DNA of 20,099 bases from a virus. Under the pieces are notes generated by a model. The model was not told the DNA's origin. It was given only the letters and a program-made list of their open reading frames with translations, and made no database searches. Shown here piece after piece: positions 1 through 17,100 of this stretch. Location of the stretch: the IMG/VR virus record IMGVR_UViG_3300017917_003147, positions 1 to 20,099 of that record. One strand, 5' to 3'. Every line of letters begins with the position of its first letter. The first letter of the stretch is position 1. The translations under genes and the position numbers were made by a program.

Positions 1-146
1 AACCAAAAAGGGGAGCAGCATATTTTTTCCCAGGAGATAAAAATTTTATACATGGAGTTACAGAAATTAAAAGTGGAATAAGATACACCTGTCCATTTTT
101 TTGGACTATAACAGAGTTGTTAGAAGGGAGTAAAATAAATGCTTAA
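1..146 (+). CDS. 2OG-Fe(II) dioxygenase, 3' end only
   Basis: The reading frame from base 3 is open from the window edge to a TAA at 144-146 and gives 47 C-terminal residues. They contain FFPG, then IHGV, then GIRYT. This is the end of the double-stranded beta-helix of a 2-oxoglutarate/Fe(II) dioxygenase: the distal iron-binding His in HGV and the Arg of IRY that would hold the 2-oxoglutarate carboxylate. The HxD motif and N-terminus lie upstream, outside the window. The closest relative here is the gene at 1704, which shares GIRYT and an FW pair shortly after. It overlaps the next gene by 8 bases, which suggests co-translation. The family call is good; the substrate is unknown. Confidence 0.75.
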   Translation, partial: PKRGAAYFFPGDKNFIHGVTEIKSGIRYTCPFFWTITELLEGSKINA

Positions 147-831
147 AGAACTTAAAGATATGTTAATTAAAGACGGATATATTGTTAATGAGCCAATAGA
201 AAATTTATTAGAAATTAAAGACTATTTAACAAAAGAAGAATTAGACTATTGTCATGATCTTATAAATAAAACTCCGAATGAAGAGTGGTTTCATTTATAT
301 TTAAGCAGTATTAAACCATTTGCTCTAGAAAAATTTGGTAGAGATGATATTGAAAATTTAGTTGCTGAAGGTCTTCTTGAAATAACTCAAGGCTGGGAAG
401 ATAAAAATTTATCAATACCAGATGATGAGTTTGTTAATAGAATAACAAATAGAATAAATAGTTATTTTGAAAAATTGCATCCTAGGGTTTTAAATTCTGG
501 ACAGGGTAGCATACAAAGAATGCAAGAGGGAGTACAGTTAAAATCTCATACAGATCAAGATACAGATCCATCAATTAGGTATGCAACAATTATATATTTA
601 AATGATGATTATGTTGATGGAGAAATATTTTGGGAAAATAAAGATTTCTCTATGAGACCATCCCCAGGAACAATGCTTATATTTCCAGGAACAAAAGAGT
701 TTCATCACGGAGTTAGACATGTTGGCAAGGGACCAATAAGATATGTAATTGTTGGATTTGTTAAAAATTTAAATTATTATGAATATGATAGAGAAGGTAA
801 TAGGAGAGAAAATGTCGACACTAGTTATTAA
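139..831 (+). CDS. 2OG-Fe(II) dioxygenase (prolyl 4-hydroxylase-like)
   Basis: Protein of 230 residues. The C-terminal half carries the dioxygenase signature: H137-T-D139 as the HxD iron ligands, the family-typical YLNDDY followed by GEIFW (about 153-165), FPG near 182, distal His H190 in HHGV, and R201 in IRY as the likely 2-oxoglutarate carboxylate anchor. Residues 1-110 are mostly helical and have no motif I recognise. Enzymes of this fold oxidise C-H bonds, usually by hydroxylation, with Fe(II), O2 and 2-oxoglutarate; the substrate here is not visible. The start overlaps the previous gene by 8 bases, with GAAGGGAG just upstream as ribosome binding site. It is the second of five tandem paralogues. 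Confidence 0.85.
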   Translation: MLKELKDMLIKDGYIVNEPIENLLEIKDYLTKEELDYCHDLINKTPNEEWFHLYLSSIKPFALEKFGRDDIENLVAEGLLEITQGWEDKNLSIPDDEFVNRITNRINSYFEKLHPRVLNSGQGSIQRMQEGVQLKSHTDQDTDPSIRYATIIYLNDDYVDGEIFWENKDFSMRPSPGTMLIFPGTKEFHHGVRHVGKGPIRYVIVGFVKNLNYYEYDREGNRRENVDTSY

Positions 832-1723
832 AGAATTATATCCATATATAATTATTTATCAAAACGTTTTTGAAAATCCAGAAAAAATTTATGATATATT
901 AAAAAGATCTGGTAAAACAGAGAATGAAATTTTAAATAAATGGAAAGATTGGTATACATTTGGTCAACAAATATATGATTCTCAAATTCAATTTGATAAA
1001 ACCATACCAGAGTTTAAAATATCTAAGGATGTAGAGGTAATTAGTGATGCTGACATTGAACAAAAATATTTTATTACTGAATTAATTAAAGGTTTCCATT
1101 TAGTAAATAATGACTATTTAAAAAGATTCAATATTAATTTAGATTTTAATTCTAAAACAATAAATAATCATCCATCTTTAAATCCAAATTGGAGTACAGA
1201 ATTCCCAGAGATTGTAGAAAGCTATAGGTGGCAGGGCCCTAGTATTTGTAAATACTATTCAGGTGCAGGAGAGTTAGAAAATTTAGTTATGCAATATCAT
1301 AGCGATCATATAATAGAAGAGTATGTAAGCCCAGGATATAAATTCCTTTTAACAACAACTACATATTTTAATGATGATTATGAGGGCGGAGATATCGTTT
1401 TTGGAGTAGGAGATAAAAAAATATCCTATAAGCCAAAAGCTGGAGATTTTGTTATTTTCCCTTCAGGTCATCCAGACTTCTTAACGGAAAATAATGATCC
1501 ATTTTTTCACGCAGTTAAAAAAACAAAAAATGGAGAAAAGTATTTTTCAAGAATGTACTGGACTAAGTTTTATAATGGAGACGAAGAGTTTTTTAATAGA
1601 AAAAATAGTCTTGATGAAAAAGAGTTTAAGAAAGCACATAAAGATTATAGTTTTGGAATATATGTTGATATACAAAAAAAGTATGAAAATCTAGAAGAGG
1701 TTAATGGAAATGAATTTATCTGA
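812..1723 (+). CDS. 2OG-Fe(II) dioxygenase, long form
   Basis: Protein of 303 residues from the ATG at 812. An in-frame ATG at 779 exists, but 812 follows AGGAGA (802-807) at good spacing and gives the N-terminus typical of the array (short lead, then IIIYQNVF). Iron ligands are H163-S-D165 and H233 (FFHAV); YFNDDY lies at about 185-190 and FPSG near 217. The basic residue in the 2-oxoglutarate position is lysine (K243 before Y), as in many prolyl 4-hydroxylases, not the arginine of its neighbours. It shares an N-terminal NKWKDW segment (42-47) with the gene at 2458 (NKWREW), so these two look like a sub-lineage. A 50-residue charged tail follows the catalytic fold. It overlaps the previous gene by 20 bases. 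Substrate unknown. Confidence 0.84.
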   Translation: MSTLVIKELYPYIIIYQNVFENPEKIYDILKRSGKTENEILNKWKDWYTFGQQIYDSQIQFDKTIPEFKISKDVEVISDADIEQKYFITELIKGFHLVNNDYLKRFNINLDFNSKTINNHPSLNPNWSTEFPEIVESYRWQGPSICKYYSGAGELENLVMQYHSDHIIEEYVSPGYKFLLTTTTYFNDDYEGGDIVFGVGDKKISYKPKAGDFVIFPSGHPDFLTENNDPFFHAVKKTKNGEKYFSRMYWTKFYNGDEEFFNRKNSLDEKEFKKAHKDYSFGIYVDIQKKYENLEEVNGNEFI

Positions 1724-2456
1724 ACAAAATAGAATAACTAAGGATATTATTTTATATAAAAATTTTTTAACAAAAGAAGAGTGCTCAAGTTTAATAAAAA
1801 TTTTAAATGATCAAGCTAATTCTGGTAAATTATCTTGGACTCCTATATCTTTTTATGAATCATACTCATCAGTGTTACCTCAAGATAATGATATAGAAAT
1901 AGAACAAAACAACCTCCCTGGTGATATTTTTTCTCAAATAAGAAATGGCATAATAAGAGCAGTAGCTTCAGTTCATGAAATAGATTATAATAAAATATCT
2001 CAAATTGGATATCATACTCAAAAATGGGAGCCAGGAGCATATGCTAGATTGCATTCTGACAATACAGATGAAAAAGGCAATACTGGTCCATTTGCTAGAA
2101 GTAGATATGCTGCCTTTTTATACCTCAATGATGATTTTGAAGGTGGAATTTTAAAATTTCCAAATCAAAATATAGAAATAAAACCAGAAACAGGATTATT
2201 GGCTGCATTTGATGGCGGATTTAATAACATGCATGAAGTTAGCCTAATAACTAAAGGAATAAGATATACAATAGGATCTTTCTGGGATGATAGAGAAGAA
2301 TCAGAATATCCACAAGAAGTTAGAGATATGTGGGCTGAAGAAATGAAAAAAATAAGAGATCAGCAGGATATTGAAAAGCAAGAATGGCAAGATCTTTTAA
2401 AACAAGGATATAAGATAGATAAAGATGGAAATAAATATAAAGTGGAGGATATTTAA
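1704..2456 (+). CDS. 2OG-Fe(II) dioxygenase
   Basis: Protein of 250 residues. The N-terminus (DIILYKNFLTKEE) is the standard opening of phage and marine prolyl-hydroxylase-like proteins. Iron ligands are H117-S-D119 and H177 (MHEV); YLNDDFEGG lies at 140-148; R187 in GIRYT is the expected 2-oxoglutarate anchor. After the fold, about 55 residues (196-250) form a charged tail, probably helical, ending in KIDKDGNKYKVEDI. A second in-frame ATG at 1710 is better spaced from the GAAGAGG at 1694-1700 and may be the real start, removing two residues. It overlaps the previous gene by 20 bases (14 if 1710 is used). The partial gene at the window edge is its nearest relative here. Confidence 0.84.
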   Translation: MEMNLSEQNRITKDIILYKNFLTKEECSSLIKILNDQANSGKLSWTPISFYESYSSVLPQDNDIEIEQNNLPGDIFSQIRNGIIRAVASVHEIDYNKISQIGYHTQKWEPGAYARLHSDNTDEKGNTGPFARSRYAAFLYLNDDFEGGILKFPNQNIEIKPETGLLAAFDGGFNNMHEVSLITKGIRYTIGSFWDDREESEYPQEVRDMWAEEMKKIRDQQDIEKQEWQDLLKQGYKIDKDGNKYKVEDI

Positions 2457-2457
2457 A

Positions 2458-3183
2458 ATGGAAAGAGTAATACTAGAGGATAACATTTATTATTATAAAA
2501 ATGCTATTCCCGATCATAAAAAGTTTATAGAAATTCTAGAGTCTACAGAAAATGAAGATTTTGGTAAATCTATAAATAAATGGAGAGAATGGCAAGCATG
2601 TAGTGGAGAAATGTATATATATGGACTAGAAAAAACAATTTTCCCAACTGATGAACAAAAAAAATTATCTAAAGAAGAAAACTCTATAAGTTATTTATAT
2701 AATACAGTAATGGATTTGTTTTACGAAATTTGTAAAGATTATGCAGAATCAAAAGGAGACTTTGATAAACCAGTAGATCTTCCTTTGTTTGACATAAAAA
2801 AGTACATGCCTGGAACTTTTATGGGAGCTCATTTTGATCAACAAGAGGGAGATACCAGACTCAGATATTCATTGGTATTTTATTTAAATGATGATTATGA
2901 AGGGGGAGAACTTTCTTTTACAATAGAGTCTCCAGATGCTCCTATAATTGAAGGTAAACCTATGGAAGATTATGAAAAAGAAAAAGAAAATAATTTTAAT
3001 AGAATTACCATTGGTTTAAAGCCAGAGGCTGGTAGTGTTATTATATTCCCGTCATCTCCACCATATCATCACACAGCCCACCTAGTTAAAAGTGGCAATA
3101 AATATATGATTCCATTACATTGGTATAATTTAGATGGAGATACTTTAACAAGTGCTCCTAATACAAAGCCTAGAGAATACTGA
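2458..3183 (+). CDS. 2OG-Fe(II) dioxygenase with loop insertion
   Basis: Protein of 241 residues from the ATG at 2458, which follows GGAGG (2444-2448) by 9 bases and lies one base after the previous stop. An upstream in-frame ATG at 2425 lacks this signal and is disfavoured. Iron ligands are H125-F-D127 and probably H208 (HLV); YLNDDYEGGEL lies at 142-152 and IIFPSS near 195-200. The 2-oxoglutarate anchor position holds K215 (KY), like the gene at 812. An acidic/lysine-rich insertion of about 25 residues (157-181) enlarges a loop after the first core strands, which could shape substrate choice. It is the last gene of the array; its TGA is part of a promoter-like TGATATAAT. Confidence 0.84.
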   Translation: MERVILEDNIYYYKNAIPDHKKFIEILESTENEDFGKSINKWREWQACSGEMYIYGLEKTIFPTDEQKKLSKEENSISYLYNTVMDLFYEICKDYAESKGDFDKPVDLPLFDIKKYMPGTFMGAHFDQQEGDTRLRYSLVFYLNDDYEGGELSFTIESPDAPIIEGKPMEDYEKEKENNFNRITIGLKPEAGSVIIFPSSPPYHHTAHLVKSGNKYMIPLHWYNLDGDTLTSAPNTKPREY

Positions 3184-3189
3184 TATAAT
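3181..3189 (+). promoter_or_regulatory. Extended -10 promoter, leaderless start of the 3196 gene
   Basis: TGATATAAT is a perfect -10 hexamer (3184-3189) with the TGn extension, which can replace a -35 box; I see no good -35. The predicted first transcribed base falls on or next to the ATG at 3196, and there is no ribosome binding site, so the message would be leaderless. The local sequence is very AT-rich, so chance is possible. Confidence 0.4.
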
Positions 3190-3195
3190 ATATAA

Positions 3196-4956
3196 ATGTC
3201 ATACTACCTTTCTGTAATTAAAAATTCTCCTTCGGGATTTTGGAAAACCGATGAGACTTCTGGTAGTATTGCATACGATAGTTCTGGTTGTGGTAACCAT
3301 GGATCATATTTTGGTGAAATTATAAAAGGTGGTTTGCCATTAGTAAATGGTGGATCTCATTCTATAAAAATAACTAACTCCAATTATATTGAGTTTCAAA
3401 TAACTAAAGATTTCTCTGGATTATCTGGTACTGGAGGCTTTGGAACTAATACAACTTCAGATAATGATTTTACATTAGAGGTGTGGGTACACCCAAAAAA
3501 TATAACTTCATTAACACCAATACTAGCCGATAGTAATGGAGTTGGTCTTTACTGGGATAATGGTAATATATTATTTAAACTAGAATCAGAAGAAGTTTTT
3601 TATTCTGTTCCAAATCCAAATAGATCATTACATATAGTTGGAATATATTCAGTAAATGCAGCTTATTTATATTTAAATGGATCATTGGTTGCATCAAAAT
3701 CATTATCTAAAATAAATTTTACAAATGAATATTTAACATTTTCAATTGGACCTGCCAATATAAATGAATATTTTATAATAGATGCACCTGCAATCTATAG
3801 ATATTCTTTAACAAACAATGACATAATAAATCATTATAATAATTTTTTTACCAATACAGAATCAAATATAGTTTTGCCAGATTCTGGAGAACTATTTAAG
3901 CCTTCTGAAAAATATCAATCAATTTCAAATACGTTTGCATTTCCTGCACAATTAGATTGGCAATATCATATTAATGAAAATTTAAGTTATAGAGAACAAC
4001 AAAATAGTATTTATTTAAATAAAAATTCCTCATATGGAGAGTTTATAAAAGTTATAAGTTTACCTGTTTGGAAAAATTATATTTCTTCAAAAATAGAGTG
4101 GCTTTCAAGTAATGGAGTTTCGTTTTGGATTTCAAATAGTGGAGAAGAAAACTCTTGGTATGAATGTACAAATAACAGCTCTTTGCCAAATTTTAGTCAA
4201 GAATTAAATTCAGCAAATAAAAAAGTTATATATATAAAAGTTAAATTTGAATCATCTAATTCGGCTATTTATATACCTGAATTATATTATTTTAAAATTC
4301 ATTTTTATGATGAAAAAAAGATTTGGTCACATAATGGAGGTTCAATAATATCTACATCTCAGCCTAATTCTGGAGACTATTGGGATATAGATATTTCAAA
4401 TAATAATAGTAGTATTCTTTTAAGAAATTTTGATAACGGAATAAAAACCAAAAATTCAGTTTTTTATATTGATACAATTAAAAATATTAAAAATATAGAA
4501 ATGATATTTTCTCCAGAATCTTTAGGTAGTGGATATTTAATATATAATAAAACTGGTTCTGTAGAAAGCTATGTATCCTGGTCAAATACGGGACTTATTT
4601 CTAAAAGTAATATTGCTAGCATATATATAAACGGAGTAGACGTATCTTTAGAAAATAATATAAGTAATTATATATATATAGGAGATATAAATTATATTTC
4701 TATAAAATTTACATCTACGATAACAGATAAAATTTGGCTTAATGGAAAACAGGATAATGGTAATAGGTCTAATGTTTTGCCTAATAATATATATCAAAAT
4801 ATATCAATATATGAAATAGAATCCTATGATGAGTTAAAACACTATAATCTATATATTGGAAAAGATGTTATTACAGCATATGATTCTGTCATACAAATAT
4901 CAGAAGAATCAATAAAAACATACTCAAGAGATAAAATATTAGTAAATAATGCATAG
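3196..4956 (+). CDS. LamG/concanavalin A-like virion protein
   Basis: Protein of 586 residues. Residues 1-215 read as a concanavalin A/LamG-like beta-sandwich: the opening SGFWKTDETSG, the DSSGCGNHG turn (about 28-37), FTLEVWVHP (about 92-100) and a YLYLNGSLVASK strand pair (about 155-166). Such domains occur in phage tail and surface proteins and often bind sugars. Residues 216-586 are Asn/Ser/Ile-rich and beta-strand-like with no motif I can name; they could be a second sandwich and an assembly region. No signal peptide or membrane segment. The gene sits 12 bases after the dioxygenase array and before the portal block, not in the usual tail-fibre position. Likely a receptor-binding or decoration protein; the exact virion location is inference. 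Confidence 0.6.
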   Translation: MSYYLSVIKNSPSGFWKTDETSGSIAYDSSGCGNHGSYFGEIIKGGLPLVNGGSHSIKITNSNYIEFQITKDFSGLSGTGGFGTNTTSDNDFTLEVWVHPKNITSLTPILADSNGVGLYWDNGNILFKLESEEVFYSVPNPNRSLHIVGIYSVNAAYLYLNGSLVASKSLSKINFTNEYLTFSIGPANINEYFIIDAPAIYRYSLTNNDIINHYNNFFTNTESNIVLPDSGELFKPSEKYQSISNTFAFPAQLDWQYHINENLSYREQQNSIYLNKNSSYGEFIKVISLPVWKNYISSKIEWLSSNGVSFWISNSGEENSWYECTNNSSLPNFSQELNSANKKVIYIKVKFESSNSAIYIPELYYFKIHFYDEKKIWSHNGGSIISTSQPNSGDYWDIDISNNNSSILLRNFDNGIKTKNSVFYIDTIKNIKNIEMIFSPESLGSGYLIYNKTGSVESYVSWSNTGLISKSNIASIYINGVDVSLENNISNYIYIGDINYISIKFTSTITDKIWLNGKQDNGNRSNVLPNNIYQNISIYEIESYDELKHYNLYIGKDVITAYDSVIQISEESIKTYSRDKILVNNA

Positions 4957-5001
4957 TTTTGTCTTGTAGATTGACAAAAAGCTGGACTTGAGGCCTACAA
5001 G
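4957..5001 (+). other. Inverted repeats that could form a pseudoknot
   Basis: TTTTGTC (4957-4963) can pair with GACAAAA (4973-4979). The loop between them holds TTGTAG (4964-4969), which can pair with CTACAA (4995-5000). The two stems interlock as an H-type pseudoknot directly after the stop of the 3196 gene. No U-run follows, so it does not look like an ordinary terminator. Role unknown; chance is possible in AT-rich DNA. Confidence 0.3.
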
Positions 5002-5011
5002 GTGGTAAAAT
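4983..5011 (+). promoter_or_regulatory. Promoter for the 5020-portal unit, near-leaderless
   Basis: TGGACT (4983-4988), 17 bases, then TAAAAT (5006-5011) with an upstream TGG, giving an extended -10. The predicted transcription start is about two bases before the ATG at 5020. The alternative ribosome site AAGGTGG (4999-5005) is 14 bases from the ATG, which is too far to be convincing. Confidence 0.4.
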
Positions 5012-5019
5012 AAATACCT

Positions 5020-5367
5020 ATGGATATTAAAAAAATAGGATCTAAGGTAAAAGTTGGAGAAACTACTCTTGGCGTATATGTTTGGGAAATGCCAGATGGT
5101 AGGTGGATTGGCGACGATGAAGGCAATTTTTTATCAATAACTTCAAAAATAGGAGATAGGGATAAAATAAATTTGCTAGCAAAAGCTGTAAGACATTATG
5201 GTATAGATGAGGGTAAACCAAAGTTCCTTGAAGGAAGTAGAAAAATTGATGACGAAGAATTTGAGTATCAAAAACAAAGATTAAAGTGGGGCTTAACTCC
5301 AGACCCATTAGATATTGGCGTGTATAAAGATGAAATGAATGCAATTAAAAAAGGACAAAAAAAATGA
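5020..5367 (+). CDS. Conserved-looking small protein before portal
   Basis: Protein of 115 residues that I do not recognise. It opens with MDIKKIGSKVKVGETTLG, continues with VWEMPDGRWIGDDEGNFLSI (21-40), and ends in a lysine-rich helix (NAIKKGQKK). It has several tryptophans and a mix of acidic and basic residues, is probably soluble and cytoplasmic, and has no signal peptide or membrane segment. Its TGA overlaps the portal ATG by four bases (ATGA), so translation is coupled and a role in head assembly or packaging is plausible by position only. The start is supported by a promoter-like element just upstream, not by a well-spaced ribosome binding site. Confidence 0.7.
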   Translation: MDIKKIGSKVKVGETTLGVYVWEMPDGRWIGDDEGNFLSITSKIGDRDKINLLAKAVRHYGIDEGKPKFLEGSRKIDDEEFEYQKQRLKWGLTPDPLDIGVYKDEMNAIKKGQKK

Positions 5368-6944
5368 TTGAGTATGAAGAAGATACTATAACAAACAATG
5401 TTGAAATATCTAATGTTGCAGACTGGATGAAGTTTAATTCTCCATCTATTAATAAGAATCAAGATCCATTTTCTATTGAAGGCGAAGAAATATTAAAGTT
5501 GTCTGGGCTAAGTCCTACAGTTAGAAGAAAAGTTAGTAGAGATATACAAAAGAAATTTGTTGGTACAGAAAACTCTGGAACACAGCAGCTATTAATTCAA
5601 CAAGCAGTTAGTGGTTATGCTTTATTTGATTTAGTTATGCCTGAGTATAATTTGGATTATTTATCTACAATATACGAAATATCTCCATATAATTATGCAG
5701 CAATTAATGCTAAAGTTTCTAATATTGTGGGATTAGGGTTTGACTTTGTAGAAACAAAAAAGACAAATGATTTACTTGATGGTATTGAAGATGAAAAACA
5801 ATTAGAAAGAGCACGTAGGAAACTTTCTAGAATTAAACAGGATTTACATGAGTGGCTTGAAGATTGTAATGAAGAAGAAACATTTAAAGAAACACTAATT
5901 AAATTTTATACAGACGTAGAAGCAACTGGTAATGGATATCTTGAAATAGGTAGAACAACTGCTGGAAAAATAGGATACATAGGTCATATTCCTTCAAAGA
6001 CTATGCGTGTGAGACGATTACGAGATGGATTCGTACAATTGCTTTATGGCAAAGCAGTATTTTTTCGCAATTTCGGAGATCAGGAAACACCAAATCCAAT
6101 AGCTGGATCAACTGATAGACCAAATGAAATTATTCATTTAAAGAAGTATACTCCTAAAAATAATTATTATGGAATTCCAGATATTATTGCAGCACAAAAT
6201 GCAATGGCTGGAAATGAATTTGCTAGTAAATATAATCTTGATTATTTTGAAAATAAAGCAGTACCAAGATATATTATTACAGTAAAAGGCGCTAAACTAT
6301 CACCAGAATCTGAACGTAAATTATTAGAATTTTTCCAAGTAGGGCTTCGTGGTAAAAATCATAGATCTTTATATATTCCACTTCCTCCAGATTCTCCAGA
6401 TTCTAAAACAGAATTTAAAATGGAGCCAATCGAGGCGGGCACTCAAGAATCTTCATTTAATATTTATCGACAAGCAAATAGAGACGAAATATTAATGGCT
6501 CATAGGGTCCCAATTAATAAAATTGGAACTGCATCTGGAATATCATTGGCAAATGCTAGAGATGCTGATAAAACATTTAAAGAGCAAGTATGCGCTCCAG
6601 CTCAAGATATTCTTGAAAAAAAATTAAATAAAATTATTCAAGAAATGACAGATGCTCTTCAGCTTAAATTTAATGAATTAAGCTTAACTGATGAAGATAC
6701 ACAGTCTAAAATTGATGAAAGATATCTCAGATTACAAGTAATTACTCCAAACGAGGTTAGAATTAGAAAAGGTCTAGTTCCACGTGATGGTGGGGATGAG
6801 GTAGTAGATTTAGCTGCCAAAGCTGCTGAAATTAAAGCAGAGGCCATGAATAGTAGAACTCGTGATCAGCAAAGAGAAGCAAATTCTCCAGATATTTCTG
6901 GCGAAGGCAGAAATGCAAAAGGCGATGGTAGACAGGTGGAGTAG
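5364..6944 (+). CDS. Portal protein
   Basis: Protein of 526 residues, a normal length for an HK97/Phage_portal-type portal. It forms the dodecameric ring at one head vertex through which DNA is packaged and to which the neck attaches. Supporting segments: YNYAAINAKVSNIVGLGF (109-126) at the start of the clip/wing region, ATGNGYLEIGR (187-197), PNEIIHLKKY then YYGIPDIIAAQNAM (253-281), and ENKAVPRYIITVKG (296-309). The C-terminus (about 480-526) is Ala/Lys/Glu-rich and then Gly-rich. The start overlaps the upstream gene by four bases. Arginine codons are mixed AGA and CGN, unlike the all-AGA dioxygenase genes. The protease and capsid genes follow, as usual. Confidence 0.9.
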   Translation: MIEYEEDTITNNVEISNVADWMKFNSPSINKNQDPFSIEGEEILKLSGLSPTVRRKVSRDIQKKFVGTENSGTQQLLIQQAVSGYALFDLVMPEYNLDYLSTIYEISPYNYAAINAKVSNIVGLGFDFVETKKTNDLLDGIEDEKQLERARRKLSRIKQDLHEWLEDCNEEETFKETLIKFYTDVEATGNGYLEIGRTTAGKIGYIGHIPSKTMRVRRLRDGFVQLLYGKAVFFRNFGDQETPNPIAGSTDRPNEIIHLKKYTPKNNYYGIPDIIAAQNAMAGNEFASKYNLDYFENKAVPRYIITVKGAKLSPESERKLLEFFQVGLRGKNHRSLYIPLPPDSPDSKTEFKMEPIEAGTQESSFNIYRQANRDEILMAHRVPINKIGTASGISLANARDADKTFKEQVCAPAQDILEKKLNKIIQEMTDALQLKFNELSLTDEDTQSKIDERYLRLQVITPNEVRIRKGLVPRDGGDEVVDLAAKAAEIKAEAMNSRTRDQQREANSPDISGEGRNAKGDGRQVE

Positions 6945-9901: not shown

Positions 9902-10882
9902 ATGGCAGAAATATATAAAAATACAAATGATCCTATAAGAACAAAAGTTTTTTGGAAAGGGGAACTTGTAACTTCAACCTCAGTAACTGCTGTTGTATTT
10001 GATATAACAGAAGATGTTACAATAATACCAAATATAAACCCTAATAATCAAATAGGTGTATTCCCAGCTACAGAAGATGAGGTAAACCCTGGGACTTATT
10101 ATATTAATCTTCCATTAAATTTAACAACAAGAAATAAAAATTTAAGAATAGTTTGGTATTTTCTTGTAGGATCACAAACCGAATCACTAGTAACATTTTG
10201 TGATATTGTCACTCCATATGTAAGTATTGCTGAAGCCATAGAAGATTTAAATTTGGGTGCTGATCAAAGCGATCCAATGTATAAAACATATCATGAAATT
10301 AGAATGGCAGAAAAGTATGCTAGAAAGCAAGTAGAGTATTTTACTGGTCAAAAATTTTCTTTATATGACGAAGAATTTACAATTATGGGAAATGATTCAG
10401 ACACATTACCTCTTCCAAGTAAAATATATTCATTACATTCTTTATCTCAAAATGATCAGTTGTGGGTAGATAATTTAAATAATATAAATAATATTGGTTA
10501 CGTTATAGAACCAACTACAAGCGGATTTGGAATTAAAATAAATCAAGCGTCTTTAATTCAGGGAGATACTTATATTGCAAATGGAATGATTCCTCCATCC
10601 ATTAATGATATTTCTCCAAATATATTTAGACGAGGAAAACATTATGATGTCCATGCTAGATTTGGATGGGAATATGTTCCCGACGAAGTTGAACAGGCGA
10701 CTATAGAAATAATGAGGTCGTATTTCGCAAAAGATAGATCTTGGAGAGATAGGTATGTAAGTAAAATTTCTACAACAGATTGGGATTTTCAATTTACTTC
10801 TGATGCATTCAGTGGAACTGGATCAGCATATGCAGATAAATTGTTATTAGATTATGTAGTAACTCAAATGGTAGTGGTATAA
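9902..10882 (+). CDS. Head-tail connector with N-terminal Ig-like domain
   Basis: Protein of 326 residues with two parts. Residues 1-110 look like an immunoglobulin/BppU-like beta-sandwich (VTAVVFDIT near 30, PGTYYINLPLNL near 64-75, LRIVWYF near 82-88). Residues 113-326 look like the helical head-tail connector (HK97 gp6/SPP1 gp15 type): EIRMAEKYARKQVEYFTGQKF (137-157), and HARFGWEYVPDEVEQATIEI then YFAKDRSWRDRY (about 250-285). It would dock under the portal. There is no clear ribosome site in the nine-base gap, so it may rely on coupling. The extra N-terminal sandwich is larger than typical connectors and could project from the neck. The start of the next gene overlaps its stop. Confidence 0.7.
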   Translation: MAEIYKNTNDPIRTKVFWKGELVTSTSVTAVVFDITEDVTIIPNINPNNQIGVFPATEDEVNPGTYYINLPLNLTTRNKNLRIVWYFLVGSQTESLVTFCDIVTPYVSIAEAIEDLNLGADQSDPMYKTYHEIRMAEKYARKQVEYFTGQKFSLYDEEFTIMGNDSDTLPLPSKIYSLHSLSQNDQLWVDNLNNINNIGYVIEPTTSGFGIKINQASLIQGDTYIANGMIPPSINDISPNIFRRGKHYDVHARFGWEYVPDEVEQATIEIMRSYFAKDRSWRDRYVSKISTTDWDFQFTSDAFSGTGSAYADKLLLDYVVTQMVVV

Positions 10883-11307
10883 TGTACAGCATCATTAATG
10901 GATTATTAACAATGACGCTAGATGTTTATAAACAATATGAACAGCAAGACCCAGATACTGGCACTATAAAAAAAGAATTTTCTTATTATAAAACAATGCC
11001 ATGTTATGCAAGAGGTATAATTAGTCAATCTGTATCAAGAAATTTAGATAAACAAGTATTTAATAATACATATTCAAATGAACAATATATAGAAGTTAGA
11101 ACAGCAGAGAGATTAACTATTAGAGAAAAAGTTAAAAATATTTGTGATGCCGAAGGCAATGTTATTTGGTATGAATTAAATTATCCAAATGATACTCCTA
11201 CTGTATTTGAAGTAATTGGAAGTACCCCAATTACAGATCCATTCGGCTCTGTGGTTGGTTATAATAATTCATTAAAAAGATCGGAGAATCAGAAAATTGA
11301 CATCTGA
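10882..11307 (+). CDS. Probable head closure protein
   Basis: Protein of 141 residues in the position and length range of head closure/head-tail joining proteins (SPP1 gp16 type). It is beta-strand rich: LDVYKQYEQQDPDTGT (13-28), a CYAR segment, QYIEVRTAERLTIREKVKNI and a TVFEVIGSTPITDPFGS strand near the end. The function rests mostly on gene order. The ATG overlaps the previous stop (TAATG) and a perfect extended -10 (TGGTATAAT, 10875-10883). If that promoter worked, its message would begin inside the gene, nearer the in-frame ATG at 10912 (residue 11). I keep 10882 as the coupled start. Confidence 0.6.
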   Translation: MYSIINGLLTMTLDVYKQYEQQDPDTGTIKKEFSYYKTMPCYARGIISQSVSRNLDKQVFNNTYSNEQYIEVRTAERLTIREKVKNICDAEGNVIWYELNYPNDTPTVFEVIGSTPITDPFGSVVGYNNSLKRSENQKIDI

Positions 11308-12088
11308 GGCCATAGCTTTACAAGCTGCTAGTGGATTAATTAATCTAATGACTGGTAGGCCAATGAGTGGCGCAATAAAAGATTCTACAGTAGCTCAAAT
11401 ATCGGCAGCCATATTTTATAAAACAAATGTGATGGCCAAATTAACTTCTAATGCTTCTTTTCAGAATACTTTTAATAAAACTATATATAATCAAATTAAT
11501 AAAGATTTTGTTGATTATATTGATGCTAAAGCTAGAACATCTCCAAAATCTTTTCATCATATTTATGAGTGGGGAAAAGTTGGGGATAGGGAAGCTAGAT
11601 TATTTAAATTAAATAACATATCTCAAACGGGATTATCTTTAATGATTAATTATGAGTTATTAGATTCTAAATCATTTGTCCCATCATCTAATTCAAATCA
11701 TAAGCATGTTTTTGTCAAAAAAGCATCAGTTATGGAAGAAGGAAGATCTGTTGTTATTTCTCCAAAATACTCTGAAAGATTAGTTTTTGATATAAATGGA
11801 TATACAGTATTTATGCCAAAAGGACAATCTGTTACTGTATCTAAGCCAGGCGGGATTGCTGTTAAAAATTCATTTTTATCGGCATATAAATATTTTTTTA
11901 CAAGTAATTTAGTCAACATGTCAATTAAAAAATCTGGCTTTCAAAATTTATTTAATTCTAAAATGACAAAGGCTTTAAACGTCCCTGTACATATTAAAAC
12001 CGTAAAGTATAAGTTCTCACCCAATAGTATTGCAAACGAGGCTGACGCAGCCCTTCTAGCAGCTTTTTCGGGGGTATCTAATGGCTAA
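11297..12088 (+). CDS. Neck/tail completion protein, function inferred
   Basis: Protein of 263 residues starting at a TTG (11297), ten bases after a GGAG (11283-11286) and inside the end of the previous gene. It opens with an Ala-rich helix (SEAIALQAASGLINLMTG). The centre (100-180) is strand-rich (RLVFDINGYTVFMPKGQSV), and the C-terminus is helical (ANEADAALLAAFSG). I recognise no catalytic motif. The slot between head closure and tail terminator usually holds an HK97 gp10-like neck or tail completion protein. The length is greater than usual for that family (about 100-170 residues), so the call is tentative. Confidence 0.5.
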   Translation: MTSEAIALQAASGLINLMTGRPMSGAIKDSTVAQISAAIFYKTNVMAKLTSNASFQNTFNKTIYNQINKDFVDYIDAKARTSPKSFHHIYEWGKVGDREARLFKLNNISQTGLSLMINYELLDSKSFVPSSNSNHKHVFVKKASVMEEGRSVVISPKYSERLVFDINGYTVFMPKGQSVTVSKPGGIAVKNSFLSAYKYFFTSNLVNMSIKKSGFQNLFNSKMTKALNVPVHIKTVKYKFSPNSIANEADAALLAAFSGVSNG

Positions 12089-12590
12089 CTATAAACTTGA
12101 TGCTATGTTTGAAATCAGAAAATATTTTTGGAATAAATTAAAAGAATATAATATATTTGATGAGGATGAATACTGGGCAGATAATTTAAATGAAGCCATA
12201 GTACCCATTATTCCAGTTCAACAAGCTCCAGAGATGAATCAATTTTTGAGCGGCAAGAAACATTTAGTTTATGATAAGATAGGCCTTTCATATCAAAATA
12301 ATTGGCTAATATGCTGCGAGCAAATTTTATTTACTGTGTATACTACAGATCTATCTGAATTGGTAGAAATTAGAAACTTTATGACAGATGAATTTAGAAG
12401 AATGGATGACTCTGCTAGGGATATAAATAAATGGGATAATCTATCAGACAAATTTAAATTCCATAGTATCTTCATAGCTGATATATCTCCCACAAAACCG
12501 TCAGAAGAAATGCAAGGGTTTTTGGCCACTGATATTATTTTAGAAGTAACATATTCAAGAATTACAGATAAAACTGGTAGATTTGCTTAA
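12081..12590 (+). CDS. Probable tail terminator protein
   Basis: Protein of 169 residues. The pattern fits tail terminators (lambda gpU/HK97 gp11 like): an N-terminal helix (EIRKYFWNKLKEYN), a central strand run (WLICCEQILFTVYTTD), a helix (LVEIRNFMTDEFRRMDDSA), and a final strand (DIILEVTYSRIT). Such proteins form the hexameric ring capping the tail tube where it meets the head. It is immediately upstream of the tail tube gene, as expected. The start overlaps the previous gene by eight bases, with GGGGGT upstream as a poor ribosome site, so translation is probably coupled. No membrane segment. The call rests on pattern and order, not on a unique motif. Confidence 0.62.
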   Translation: MANYKLDAMFEIRKYFWNKLKEYNIFDEDEYWADNLNEAIVPIIPVQQAPEMNQFLSGKKHLVYDKIGLSYQNNWLICCEQILFTVYTTDLSELVEIRNFMTDEFRRMDDSARDINKWDNLSDKFKFHSIFIADISPTKPSEEMQGFLATDIILEVTYSRITDKTGRFA

Positions 12591-12610
12591 TTTGCTTTAG
12601 GCTGTATTAT
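12583..12610 (+). promoter_or_regulatory. Promoter for tail tube gene
   Basis: TTGCTT (12583-12588), 16 bases, then TATTAT (12605-12610); an overlapping TATACT at 12608-12613 is an alternative -10. It is weaker than the other promoters by consensus. The leader of about 75 bases holds an (AT)n run (12651-12662), a palindrome and AGGAGGT (12679-12685), the best-placed ribosome site in the window. Confidence 0.4.
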
Positions 12611-12666
12611 ACTCTAAAATTAGTTCTAGAGGAAAGGGCCTAGCCAGCCAAATATATATATATTAC

Positions 12667-12678
12667 ATTTCATGAAAT
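12667..12678. repeat. 12-base palindrome before tail tube ribosome site
   Basis: ATTTCATGAAAT is a perfect palindrome ending exactly where AGGAGGT begins. It could be an operator or a small RNA structure next to the ribosome site. Chance cannot be excluded. Confidence 0.3.
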
Positions 12679-12692
12679 AGGAGGTTAACTTC

Positions 12693-13373
12693 ATGGCACA
12701 ATCAGCAGGTAATGCTAAAAATATTCTCGTTGGTGCTTCCCCATTGTTTATTTCAAACATTGATATTACAGAAGGATCAGCATACAAGGAAAACGCAGAA
12801 CCAGGTTCAGCAGATGCGGCTGCATATGAGACAACAAAATCTTATACAGAAACACTTAATGGTGTAACAAGCGGTGCATTCTACTACAGAAACGTTGGTT
12901 TTACTAATAATGGTCTTCAGATCACTTATAACCCAACATATGATTCTGTAACAGTTGATCAGTTACTTGATACAGCAAAGCTATTCAAGTCTGCGATGGA
13001 GGTTATGATCGCAACAGAAATGTCCGAAGGTACATTAGAAAACGTTCTAGTTGTATTTGGACAAGGATCAGATACCTTGACATCACCATCTTCAGGAACA
13101 CAAAGTGGAAATGATGTTCTCGCACTTGCGGGTGGATCACTTGGCGAAGCTCCAACAGAGCGTCAGCTAATTGCAGTTGGACAAGCTCCAACAGTGGCTT
13201 CTCCAAAGACAGAGCGTGTATATTATGCACGTCGTGTTCTTTCTGTACAACAGTCACAGTTCTCTTTGGCTCGTACAACTCCAACTACTTTCCCAGTAAC
13301 ATTCCGTCTTCTTCCAGATGCTTCAAAGGTCGGTCAAGAATACGGTTTGATTATTGACCGTGCTTGGGCTTAA
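12693..13373 (+). CDS. Major tail tube protein
   Basis: Protein of 226 residues in the position before the chaperone pair and tape measure, with the strongest ribosome site of the window (AGGAGGT) and a terminator after it, as expected for an abundant protein. It opens MAQSAGNAKNILVGASPLFISN, followed by strand-rich segments: NNGLQITYNPTYDSVTVDQL (about 70-89) and MEVMIATEMSEGT (about 102-114). The C-terminal strand TTFPVTFRLLPDAS (about 200-213) is typical of tail tube proteins. It polymerises as stacked rings around the tape measure. Arginine codons are nearly all CGT, in contrast to the neck genes. The TAA stop lies inside a long palindrome. Confidence 0.82.
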   Translation: MAQSAGNAKNILVGASPLFISNIDITEGSAYKENAEPGSADAAAYETTKSYTETLNGVTSGAFYYRNVGFTNNGLQITYNPTYDSVTVDQLLDTAKLFKSAMEVMIATEMSEGTLENVLVVFGQGSDTLTSPSSGTQSGNDVLALAGGSLGEAPTERQLIAVGQAPTVASPKTERVYYARRVLSVQQSQFSLARTTPTTFPVTFRLLPDASKVGQEYGLIIDRAWA

Positions 13374-13393
13374 TAATTAAATTTAATTATTAA
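13370..13393. repeat. Perfect 24-base AT palindrome at the tail tube stop
   Basis: Bases 13370-13393 equal their own reverse complement, centred between 13381 and 13382, made only of A and T and including the TAA stop at 13371-13373. The terminator stem begins four bases later. It could extend the terminator structure or protect the 3' end of the message. Confidence 0.6.
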
Positions 13394-13396
13394 AAT

Positions 13397-13423
13397 AAAC
13401 CCCCCAGAAATGGGGGGTTTTCA
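13397..13423 (+). terminator. Rho-independent terminator after tail tube gene
   Basis: A ten-base perfect stem (13397-13406 with 13411-13420; AAACCCCCCA/TGGGGGGTTT) closed by a stable GAAA tetraloop, with a short T-run after. The A-run before it could make it work on the other strand too. Confidence 0.85.
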
Positions 13424-13424
13424 T

Positions 13425-13453
13425 TTGTAGTCTTAATATCCTTATGTTATAAT
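13425..13453 (+). promoter_or_regulatory. Promoter for chaperones and tape measure
   Basis: TTGTAG (13425-13430), 17 bases, then TATAAT (13448-13453) preceded by TGT, an extended -10. Transcription would start near 13460, before AAAGGAGG (13466-13473) and the TTG at 13479. An ATG at 13452 overlaps the -10 and would not be in this message. Confidence 0.55.
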
Positions 13454-13478
13454 GTTTTATATCCTAAAGGAGGATAAA

Positions 13479-13811
13479 TTGGCTACAAAAGTCTACGACG
13501 TAGAAGAAATCGAATTACAAAATGGGGCTAAAGTAAAACTTAAGCCACTATCAATTAAACAACTCCGTAAATTTATGGAAGTTGTAAAACAAACACAAGA
13601 CTCATCAGATGAAAATGCAACACTAAGTATTTTAATTGATGCATGTGCAGTAGCACTTGAAACACAATTACCAGATTTGGTTGCAGATAAAGATAAATTA
13701 GAAGATGCATTAGACGTCCCAACTATTAATCGCATTCTAGAAGTTTGCGGTGGAATTAAGATGGACGACCCAAACCTGATAGCGGCAGCGGTACTGGCTG
13801 GTCAGAACTAG
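13479..13811 (+). CDS. Tail assembly chaperone, short form (gpG-like)
   Basis: Protein of 110 residues from a TTG at 13479, five bases after GGAGG (13469-13473). The in-frame ATG at 13452 is rejected because it lies in the promoter -10. The protein has a beta start (YDVEEIELQNGAKVKLKPLS), a helix LRKFMEVVKQTQ, and a long helical region to VPTINRILEVCGGI, typical of lambda gpG-like chaperones that hold the tape measure before tube assembly. It ends at TAG 13809-13811. Most ribosomes should make this form; a minority shift at 13769-13775 to make the long form. The tape measure gene follows, which is the classic order. Confidence 0.82.
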   Translation: MATKVYDVEEIELQNGAKVKLKPLSIKQLRKFMEVVKQTQDSSDENATLSILIDACAVALETQLPDLVADKDKLEDALDVPTINRILEVCGGIKMDDPNLIAAAVLAGQN

Positions 13812-14140
13812 ATCTAGCCGCATTATTAGGTGAAGTATTTCTTCTAGGGCATTGGAAGAATTACGAAGAGTTAGAAGAAAACTTATCAATGCCTGAGCTT
13901 TTGCAAACGCTTAAATCAAAGCATGAACAGGAGCATAACCAGCGAAAATTTGCAGCATCTCTAAAGGGAATAGATATAGACGATGGTGCAGAAAATAAAG
14001 AAGGTTCTACCTTTGACGATGTAAGAAGAAGAGCCCTTGGAATAAATGCATCAGCAGATGATGTTGTAAGTTTACAAGGATCTTTTGCCAGCGAAGCTGG
14101 ATTTGGAATCGGAATGGGGTTAGGATATTCCAAGGAGTAA
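13479..14140 (+). CDS. Tail assembly chaperone, frameshifted long form (gpGT-like)
   Basis: A -1 shift at CCCAAAC joins the first 99 residues to a second frame from 13775 to the TAA at 14138-14140, giving about 220 residues. The second part (SELDLAALLGEVFLLGHWKN, then ENLSMPELLQTLKSKHEQEH) is the usual start of the T domain, although it has no start codon or ribosome site of its own before the ATG at 13889. That ATG lies too far inside the conserved region to be the real start. The T part ends in a Gly-rich tail (GFGIGMGLGYSKE). In lambda-like phages the G/GT ratio controls tail assembly. AAGGAG of the tape measure lies within its last codons. Confidence 0.8.
13769..13775 (+). promoter_or_regulatory. 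-1 ribosomal frameshift slippery site CCCAAAC
   Basis: CCCAAAC fits the X-XXY-YYZ rule in the zero frame (C-CCA-AAC). The -1 frame has a stop at 13757-13759 just upstream and stays open from there to 14140, so the shift must occur in the short window where both frames are open. A stimulating hairpin downstream is possible (GC-rich 13782-13800) but not clear to me. Confidence 0.8.
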
Positions 14141-14143
14141 TTA

Positions 14144-17100
14144 ATGGCTGACGAACAAATTGTAACGAGTATAGTCGCCAAAGCTGACTTGTCAAGCCTT
14201 GTGTCTGAAGTACACAGGGCTACAGCCAGTTTACAACAATTACAAAGAGAATTAAATACTTCCAATAAATCAATTGCATCAGCTACAAAAATAGCTAATA
14301 ATTTATTTAGAGATACTCTTGTTGGAAGTGGTATGTATGCCAGTAATTTTGTTAATTTAAATTCAGATGTAGATAAGTTTGGTAAAAATTTAGATGCTGG
14401 AAGACTAAAGCTTAAAGATTATTTTACAACATATCAAACGCATTTAAGAACATCAAAAGGATTGATTAGAGAGCTTGCTAGAGAGCAAGTAATGCTACAA
14501 AATTCTGTTCTTCAACCATTGGGTAGAAATGCTCAAGGCTTAATGCAGTACAACGTAATGATTCCCAGAGGCCTTGATGAAGTAGCAAATAAGATGAAAA
14601 TAGCTCGCATGGAAGCTATGATAATGAATAAAACTCTTTCTCAGGGGGCTACAGCACTAATTAATTGGGGTAAAAATACTCAATGGGCTGGTCGCCAGTT
14701 AACAGTAGGCTTAACAGTTCCAATGACTATGTTTGGTTCAGCAGCAGCAAAAGCATTTAGAGAAGCTGATCAAGAATTAGTTAGATTAACAAAAGTTTAT
14801 GGAGGATTAGCTGCAACATCAGCACAAGATTTAAAAGCAATTAGAGAAGATGTAGTAAAAACATCAAAAGAATTATCTCAGGCATATGGATCAAGTTTTA
14901 AAGACACCATCGCTTTAGCAGCTGACATAGCAGCAACAGGAAAAACTGGAAATGACTTATTGAGTTCTGTTAAAGAAACAACAAGACTTGCAATTCTTGG
15001 TGAAGTCGATAGACAAGAGGCAATGAAAGCTACTCTTGCTATACAAACAGCATTTAAGCAAAATACTCAAGAACTTACAGAAACAATTAACTTTTTAAAC
15101 GCAGTTGAAAACCAAACATCAACAACTCTTAATGATTTAGTCGAAGCTATTCCAAAAGCAGGACCAATTATTAAAGGTTTAGGTGGTAGCGTAAAAGACC
15201 TTGCATTATATTTAACAGCAATGCGAGAGGGTGGAATCGCAGCTGGAGAAGGAGCAAACGCATTAAAGTCTGGTCTAGCATCATTAATTAATCCAACTAA
15301 AGTAGCTCAAGCAAGATTTAAAGAATTTGGAATTGATATTTTAGGAATTGTAAATTCTAACGCAGGGAATGTAACTGCAACTATTTTAGAACTACAAAAA
15401 TCATTAGAAAAATTAAATCCATTGCAAAAACAACAAGCATTAGAACAGTTGTTTGGTAAATTCCAATTTGCTAGAATGAATGCCTTGTTTGAAAATCTTG
15501 GTAAGCAAGGAAGCCAAACTTTACAAGTTCTTGATTTAATGAAGGCTTCATCTCAAGATTTAGCAAACATAGCTGGACGAGAGTTAACTCAAGTAACAGA
15601 ATCAGCATCTGGTAAGTATAGAAGGGCTATCGAAACCTTAAGGGCTAGTCTAGCAACAACTGGAGAGCAGTTTTTAGGAGTTGCTACTAAATTTATAAAT
15701 GCTTTTTCTAAAGTTTTAGATTTTTTTAATAATTTACCAGAACCTATTAAAAAAGCTGTAACATATTTGGGTGGATTTACAGCAGTAATTGGTCCAATAA
15801 TTATGTTAACTGGCGTACTTGCAAACTTTTTTGGATATATTACAAAGGGTATAGTTCAGCTTAGAGCGTTTTTTCAAAGAGCACATGGATGGAAAATGCT
15901 TACTCCAGAAATTATTGCTGCACAAAAAGCTGCGGACTTAGTAGAACAATCATTTTATTCTGATGCAAAAGCTGCCGAAGTTCTTCATGGAGCATTAACT
16001 AAACTTACATCAGATTATATGAATTTACAAAAGGCAATGTTAACTGGCACAATACCAGTGAATCCAGCAGTAACAACAGTTGCTGGAAGACCAGTTATGG
16101 ATTCTTTAAGAAGAGTTGTAGATCCTAATGATCCATATGTTGGAGATATTAATACTAGAGCAATGTCTCATATTAATCCAAGAGATCCAAATAATCCAGC
16201 TTCTATTTTTGGAGGAGTTCCTGGAGCAGTACCAGTCAATAGAGGAATTTTAAGAACACCACAAATATATATGCAAGACAGACTTCCTAACATAGAAGGT
16301 TTAACTTCGGTAAAAGGAATTTCTACTGGTATAGTTTCTGGCGAAGCTGCCAGATTCCATGCATTAATGGCAACGCTTGGAATGCAAACAGAAGCTGAAG
16401 TTGCTAATTTAAAGAAAACAATTGCATTAGGTGGTACTGTAAGTGCAGAGTTATTAGATACTTTTGATGACATTCTTCCTATTACAACTAGATTAGCAGA
16501 TAATGCAGCTACACAGTCAGCTAGAATTGTAACAGAATTAAGAGCTGGGAAAATGACAGTTGATCAAGCTAAAACAGAAATAATGGCAATAAATGCTCAA
16601 TTAGAAACTGCATTAAAATCTGAAGTTGCTGCATATGCAGCTTCAAGAGGAAGAACAATTGATTTTACTAAAGCTCCATTAATGAATCAACCAGTAGTTG
16701 ATGCTACTGGACAATTTACATTAAGAGACTTATATAAAAAAGAAGCAAATCGTGCTGTCATGGAAGAATTTGGAAGGTTACGTGGAGTTAGAACATTTGG
16801 CGCTCCATATAGTATTCAAACAACTAGGTTACCAAAATTAAATGCTGGTGGAGATATAGAATCATTTGGTCCTAATAAAACTGTTGTATCTGGACCTACA
16901 TCAATTAATTATGATGATAGATTAGGTACTGTTCCAGTTGGAGGATATGTATTGAATCAAGGAGCATCATTAGATCCAGCCAATAGGGATCTAGTTGCAA
17001 TGGCTCCATATACATTTGAGGATGGTGGAAAAATAACAGCAGCATTAACTCCAGGAGAAGTTGTTTTTGGACCAAAGATAAATAAAATTCCTGGATTATA

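Follow-up and report, generated by a model that had tools for sequence, protein, structure and literature searches.

A tandem array of 2OG-Fe(II) oxygenases in a tailed phage, predicted to hydroxylate a Phe/Pro-repeat fibre

Why would a tailed phage carry at least five different 2-oxoglutarate- and Fe(II)-dependent (2OG-Fe(II)) oxygenase genes in a row next to its structural genes? This question is raised by the IMG/VR record IMGVR_UViG_3300017917_003147, a linear viral contig of 20,099 bp that was analysed in its entirety (hereafter the window). An array of such genes occupies its first 3.2 kb, with open reading frames (ORFs) that overlap or abut and with one gene truncated by the left edge. 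The data presented here point to a set of peptidyl, mainly prolyl, hydroxylases that is predicted to be dedicated to a single virion fibre bearing phenylalanine/proline (Phe/Pro) repeats, a reading to which we assign a probability of ca. 0.6. The genes of the array are the following:

3 to 146, plus strand: ox0, the cut gene; C-terminal 47 residues of a 2OG-Fe(II) oxygenase of group c1 (frame-3 translation)
139 to 831, plus strand: ox1, 2OG-Fe(II) oxygenase of 230 aa; HTD, distal H and R intact; PF13640, 40.5 bits
812 to 1723, plus strand: ox2, 2OG-Fe(II) oxygenase of ca. 303 aa; HSD, H and K intact; PF13640, 31.3 bits
1710 to 2456, plus strand: ox3, 2OG-Fe(II) oxygenase of ca. 248 aa, group c0; HSD, H and R intact; PF13640, 33.2 bits
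2458 to 3183, plus strand: ox4, 2OG-Fe(II) oxygenase of ca. 241 aa, group c2; HFD, H and K intact; PF13640, 43.2 bits

All five products belong to, or align with, PF13640 (2OG-FeII_Oxy_3), whose gathering cut-off of 27 bits is exceeded by the four complete genes (31.3 to 43.2 bits); as a measure of chance, a PF13640-type gene was found within a 4-kb stretch at none of 47 random viral loci. Motif alignment indicates that the iron ligands (H-x-D and a distal H) and the basic 2-oxoglutarate anchor (R or K) are kept in all four complete genes, whose products share 24 to 29% pairwise identity, mostly across the catalytic core. A first-pass annotation of this DNA had described at least five tandem oxygenases carrying these motifs with little identity outside them, a description with which the present results fully agree. 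Based on Shine-Dalgarno-like sequences, ox1 to ox4 probably start at positions 139, 812, 1710 and 2458; the ORFs of ox2, ox3 and ox4 open at 779, 1704 and 2425, respectively, and for ox2 it is AGGAGAGAAA that points to a start at 812. The cut gene ox0 is read in frame 3 (bases 3-143, stop at 144-146, translation beginning PKRGAAYFFPGDKNFIHGVTEIKSGIRYTCPFFW) and is 78-84% identical, across 36-38 residues, to the C-termini of group c1 in relatives. No tRNA was found in the window.

A candidate substrate for these enzymes emerged from the sequences that surround similar genes elsewhere. A scan across all viral contigs was made for DNA that encodes FFPPFFPPFFPP or FFxPP[GS] repeats, and the counts below concern the matches listed, at most 120 stretches for each repeat. 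At loci with enough sequence, oxygenases occurred within 4 kb downstream and on the same strand in 47 of 60 cases for FFPP and in 60 of 62 for FF[x]PP[GS]; they were found upstream of the repeat in 1/40 and 0/44 cases, respectively. When loci were grouped into nucleotide clusters, oxygenases lay downstream in 21 of 29 FFPP clusters and in all 15 FF[x]PP[GS] clusters. Control loci with an oxygenase downstream amounted to 1/53 for collagen-like Gly-Pro-Gln repeats and 0/47 for a random 15-mer, the corresponding cluster counts being 1/51 for collagen, 0/33 for random and 3/57 for Pro-Thr repeats. Conversely, a Phe/Pro-repeat ORF was located upstream and on the same strand for 29 of 29 ox1 homologues and 25 of 32 ox3 homologues having at least 8 kb of upstream sequence, against a background of 1/334 control loci; two of the seven ox3 misses (L813 and L815) are on contigs that do hold a repeat gene. 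The collagen and Pro-Thr controls rule out that oxygenases accompany repetitive or Pro-rich fibres in general, and what accompanies the oxygenases is a gene with Phe/Pro repeats, a Gly-X-Y collagen substrate being found alongside them at only one of 53 Gly-Pro-Gln loci. That the array is nearly always downstream of the fibre gene suggests that the enzymes decorate the Phe/Pro fibre.

Closer relatives of the window were gathered by using its head maturation protease as query, which yielded 80 metagenomic contigs with proteases 75-98% identical to that of the window. In the window, the array is followed by genes for a LamG protein, a small unknown protein, a portal, the protease, a capsid and tape-measure-like products, in that order, among which are:

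3196 to 4956, plus strand: LamG (concanavalin A-like) protein, PF13385, 42.7 bits, phrog_11584; right-hand border of the cassette
5364 to 6944, plus strand: portal protein, PF04860, 113 bits
7000 to 8340, plus strand: head maturation protease, phrog_9427, E=1e-126

The first-pass annotation had proposed a search of metagenomic phages for the same cassette, and 39 of these loci indeed carry 4 to 7 oxygenases in tandem upstream of the LamG and portal genes; exceptions have other genes inserted, and at one locus (L081), no oxygenase was found in the 6 kb upstream of LamG. Related contigs of 90-120 kb contain 8-12 PF13640 copies in all. Clustering revealed recurrent oxygenase groups, of which c0 (ox3) and c1 (ox0) are found in nearly all related cassettes while the others differ between cassette types. 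The cassette nearest to that of the window occurs in L027 (ox0, 84% identical; ox2, 48%, with L027:2589-3500; ox3, 78%; ox4, 71%, with L027:4242-4940); compared with it, ox1 is an additional, inserted gene, and its homologues in viral contigs are up to 56% identical. One such exception is L007, whose protease is 98% identical to that of the window; there, the cassette is separated from LamG by inserted genes (1133-5583) for a glycosyltransferase, a collagen-like product and a Listeria-Bacteroides-repeat protein. One to three mutually alignable DUF6065 / phrog_7084 proteins are present inside most cassettes and none in the window (examples are L039:2362-3078, L016:1274-1972, L016:1965-2681 and L077:553-1961). 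Haloarchaeal tailed viruses, among them HF1 and HRTV-7, have distant relatives of these proteins, no paper naming DUF6065 was found in the literature search, and an AlphaFold model of one such protein was too poor to be kept (pLDDT 49).

In all 18 relatives examined in which the region is present, the gene upstream of the cassette encodes a protein with C-terminal Phe/Pro repeats, and by homology such a gene presumably also lies beyond the left edge in the phage from which the window derives. Most of these proteins contain FN3 domains, which Pfam searches confirmed wherever they were run; the gene preceding the repeat gene carries an Mtd_N tail-fibre domain in 5/5 cases tested. The repeats are of several types, namely FF[GSA]PP[GS] with a period of 6, FFSPPFFPPG with a period of 10, [FH]FPPFFPP, FFPFFPPFFPY-like and FFPP. 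In the L027 relative, ca. 5.5 kb with other genes separates the repeat gene from the cassette; for the interval between repeat gene and cassette of the closest relative (L106, reverse complement, 11449-16960), reading by eye only suggests genes for a methyltransferase, a radical-SAM protein, a PLP enzyme and an IMP dehydrogenase/GMP reductase. Contig L106 also encodes a second Phe/Pro-repeat protein (reverse complement, 2809-3573) with FFPPFFPPSFP repeats and a short, different N-terminal part, directly after a collagen-like gene. In some repeat proteins, the Phe/Pro run is followed by a C-terminal domain of Hint/intein-type appearance (TLxRTPxGxVxAGQxxxGDxV, VDTEVLAKDGWKKVENLQVGDKL), as in L106 (reverse complement, 9969-11447), L113:17947-19305 and L105:10733-12118, for which no Pfam match was obtained where tried. 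In bacterial genomes, the repeat was seen in 12 scattered metagenome-bin contigs.

The association extends to inheritance, as judged from pairwise distance correlations across 18 phages. Distances within the ox3 group are correlated with distances between the FN3 parts of the repeat proteins (r=0.78; partial correlation given the protease 0.78, permutation p=0.0005), whereas they do not follow the protease (r=0.03) or LamG (r=0.06). LamG itself follows the protease (r=0.70) and is thereby ruled out as the partner. The surface-type protein that the first-pass annotation had noted beside the array therefore tracks the phage backbone, the linked gene being the FN3/Phe-Pro fibre on the other side of the array and outside the window; of the options raised in that annotation, a diversified set acting on one virion protein is the best supported, and its ideas of a stepwise pathway, a nucleotide or a host metabolite found no support. 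The correlation of ox3 with the full-length Mtd_N fibre (r=0.59) is lower than that with the Phe/Pro gene (0.77), and the N-terminal 200 residues of the Mtd_N fibre give only r=0.20 with ox3. Because ox3 tracks the fibre genes and neither the protease nor LamG, the distal fibre part, the repeat protein and the oxygenases seem to form a module that is exchanged among backbones, within which the tightest link seems to be that between the repeat protein and the oxygenases; across backbones, the type of cassette goes with the type of repeat. An alternative is that the oxygenases belong to the fibre module yet act on something else on or around the virion, for instance a glycan or a cell-surface receptor that is altered to exclude other phages, and are exchanged together with the fibre since both set host specificity. 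The movement of the cassette with the fibre part fits this view, and some cassettes contain or adjoin genes for a glycosyltransferase and an SDR protein (Pfam) or for an FkbM-like protein (by reading only). It is nevertheless unlikely, given that the low-complexity Phe/Pro repeat is itself the linked element, with the collagen (1/53 loci) and Pro-Thr (3/57 clusters) counts cited above, and that most of the nearest matches in fold and profile searches are to peptidyl hydroxylases.

These matches were obtained for ox3, the only oxygenase modelled, by using AlphaFold2 with ox3 and 17 orthologues (pLDDT 90). The top Foldseek matches in the Protein Data Bank (PDB), with E-values down to 2e-10, are P3H1, a bacterial prolyl 4-hydroxylase (P4H), the PBCV-1 collagen hydroxylase (vCPH) and an algal P4H with (Ser-Pro)5. 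PDB profile matches of the ox3 group are mostly to peptidyl prolyl or lysyl hydroxylases and comprise P3H1 (2e-10), Bacillus P4H (2e-6), PHD2, LH3 and the PKHD-type PiuC; a direct PDB search with ox4 alone gave no match. The predicted fold of ox3 is thus that of a peptidyl prolyl hydroxylase, which supports peptidyl hydroxylation without proving it. With P3H1/C-P4H and the algal, bacterial and PBCV-1 enzymes, the array has in common the double-stranded beta-helix, the HxD...H and R/K residues and, presumably, a proline-rich repeat protein as substrate. It differs from them in that 4-7 different enzymes are encoded in tandem in a tailed phage, in that the presumed substrate is a Phe/Pro repeat mostly without Gly-X-Y triplets, and in sequence, with 16-21% identity between ox3 and prolyl hydroxylases in structural alignments.

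Another explanation is that the genes are redundant, decaying duplicates, or encode non-catalytic structural proteins built on the oxygenase fold. The full active site is retained in 822 of 845 fully aligned family members, and most exceptions are found at the end of type A and type C cassettes, whose last gene (groups c4 and c11) lacks the iron ligands (see L034:5627-6172 and L033:5583-6188) and speaks for such a view. Median dN/dS ranges from 0.04 to 0.22 and is mostly ca. 0.07, including 0.066 for group c4, and nearly all cassettes contain the same recurring groups. Because of these low ratios and retained ligands, the oxygenases are not decaying copies, and the explanation as a whole is very improbable; the outcome that the first-pass annotation had named as damaging, a single gene in relatives with the rest in decay, did not materialise, the relatives having 4-7 genes. 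The ligand-free last gene of these two cassette types is conserved and appears to encode a maintained pseudo-enzyme, perhaps a substrate-binding or partner subunit.

A further explanation is that these genes serve host metabolism, 2-oxoglutarate/nitrogen signalling, or DNA repair or modification. T4-like cyanophages have up to five 2OG oxygenases per genome (PMC3037559), for which roles in 2-oxoglutarate/nitrogen signalling or DNA repair have been proposed (PMC3037559, PMC2984593). Those enzymes (phrog_61 and relatives) belong to the same HMM families as the ones described here, but have not been reported as a single tandem array with a Phe/Pro-repeat fibre (Sullivan et al. 2010, PMC3037559). 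In two relatives, second sets of 2-3 tandem oxygenases (L094:1794-4946 in G013 and L090:16210-17885 in G001) adjoin SSB-like and RecA-like genes with no Phe/Pro repeat nearby, a point in favour of such roles; these sets probably serve a different function. For the cassette itself, the location between fibre and head genes, the directional linkage to the repeat gene, the several divergent members and the lack of DNA-modification genes in the cassettes read make such roles improbable.

The combination is not confined to the relatives of the window. PF13640 was detected in 44 of 50 FFPP contigs, whereas the portal matched that of the window in 18 of 50 (17 clearly related and one at 23% identity), and even in repeat-bearing contigs as long as 205 kb there is no match to the PF04860 portal; the repeat-oxygenase combination therefore seems to be common to several phage lineages, with the caveat that the contigs are fragments. 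A T4-type portal (PF07230) was found in 0/50 repeat-bearing contigs, in a search in which control genomes also gave no match; the portal of the window is of the PF04860 type. The structural block of the window (portal, protease, major capsid protein (MCP) and tape measure) is shared with the Stanwilliamsviridae, Streptomyces phages such as Blueeyedbeauty and Coruscant, whose proteases are 43-51% identical to that of the window and which share the order LamG, small unknown protein, portal, protease, MCP and tape measure. In the two genomes compared, however, no oxygenase is annotated before LamG and the portal, and glycosyltransferases, ribonucleotide reductase and endolysin occupy the place of the array.

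Several points weigh against a hydroxylase set dedicated to the Phe/Pro fibre. The repeat gene of the window's own phage is inferred only by homology, because the contig ends before it, and 8 of the 29 FFPP clusters have no oxygenase within 4 kb. The fold and profile matches say little about the substrate because the superfamily structures solved so far are largely those of prolyl hydroxylases, and the TM-scores of the top ox3 matches are moderate (ca. 0.46-0.58 by query length). The last genes of type A and C cassettes are without iron ligands yet conserved. Finally, the link between oxygenases and fibre could reflect hitch-hiking within the fibre module, as the Mtd_N fibre also correlates with ox3 (0.59).

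The Phe/Pro fibre as substrate, the residue hydroxylated, the division of one enzyme per site and the location of the fibre on the virion are all presumptive, and a scheme can be proposed on this basis. The Phe/Pro-repeat protein would be made beside the Mtd_N-type tail fibre, and each enzyme, consuming O2 and 2-oxoglutarate with the help of Fe(II), would hydroxylate its own position in the repeat; enzymes may differ in the Pro of the PP pair, in the ring carbon or in the flanking Phe/Ser/Gly/His context that they act on. Candidate substrate peptides of the repeat type for ox1-ox4 are FFPPFFPP and FFSPPGFFAPPG. The product would be a densely hydroxylated, stiff and polar rod whose hydroxyls may then be glycosylated in some phages, the glycosyltransferase beside some cassettes being a possible source of the sugars. 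Stiff hydroxylated fibres are found in collagen and in algal and plant hydroxyproline-rich proteins. That mobile hydroxylase cassettes, matched to the repeat type and exchanged with the fibre across lineages, yield such a rod has in our estimate an even chance of being correct.

In the literature outside preprints and most subscription papers, a search by title and abstract returned nothing relevant on phage hydroxyproline or tandem oxygenases, no paper containing the FFPPFFPP repeat was found, and phage protein modification of this kind is not described. What is new is the arrangement and the presumed substrate, peptidyl-hydroxylase-like enzymes being already known. For more than a decade, aquatic phage genomes have been seen to carry multiple 2OG oxygenases with no identified substrate, for which the linkage described here names a concrete candidate. 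If the prediction is true, phage fibres would be widely modified by hydroxylation, and hydroxylases that differ in their specificity for Phe/Pro sequences would be available from the cassettes.

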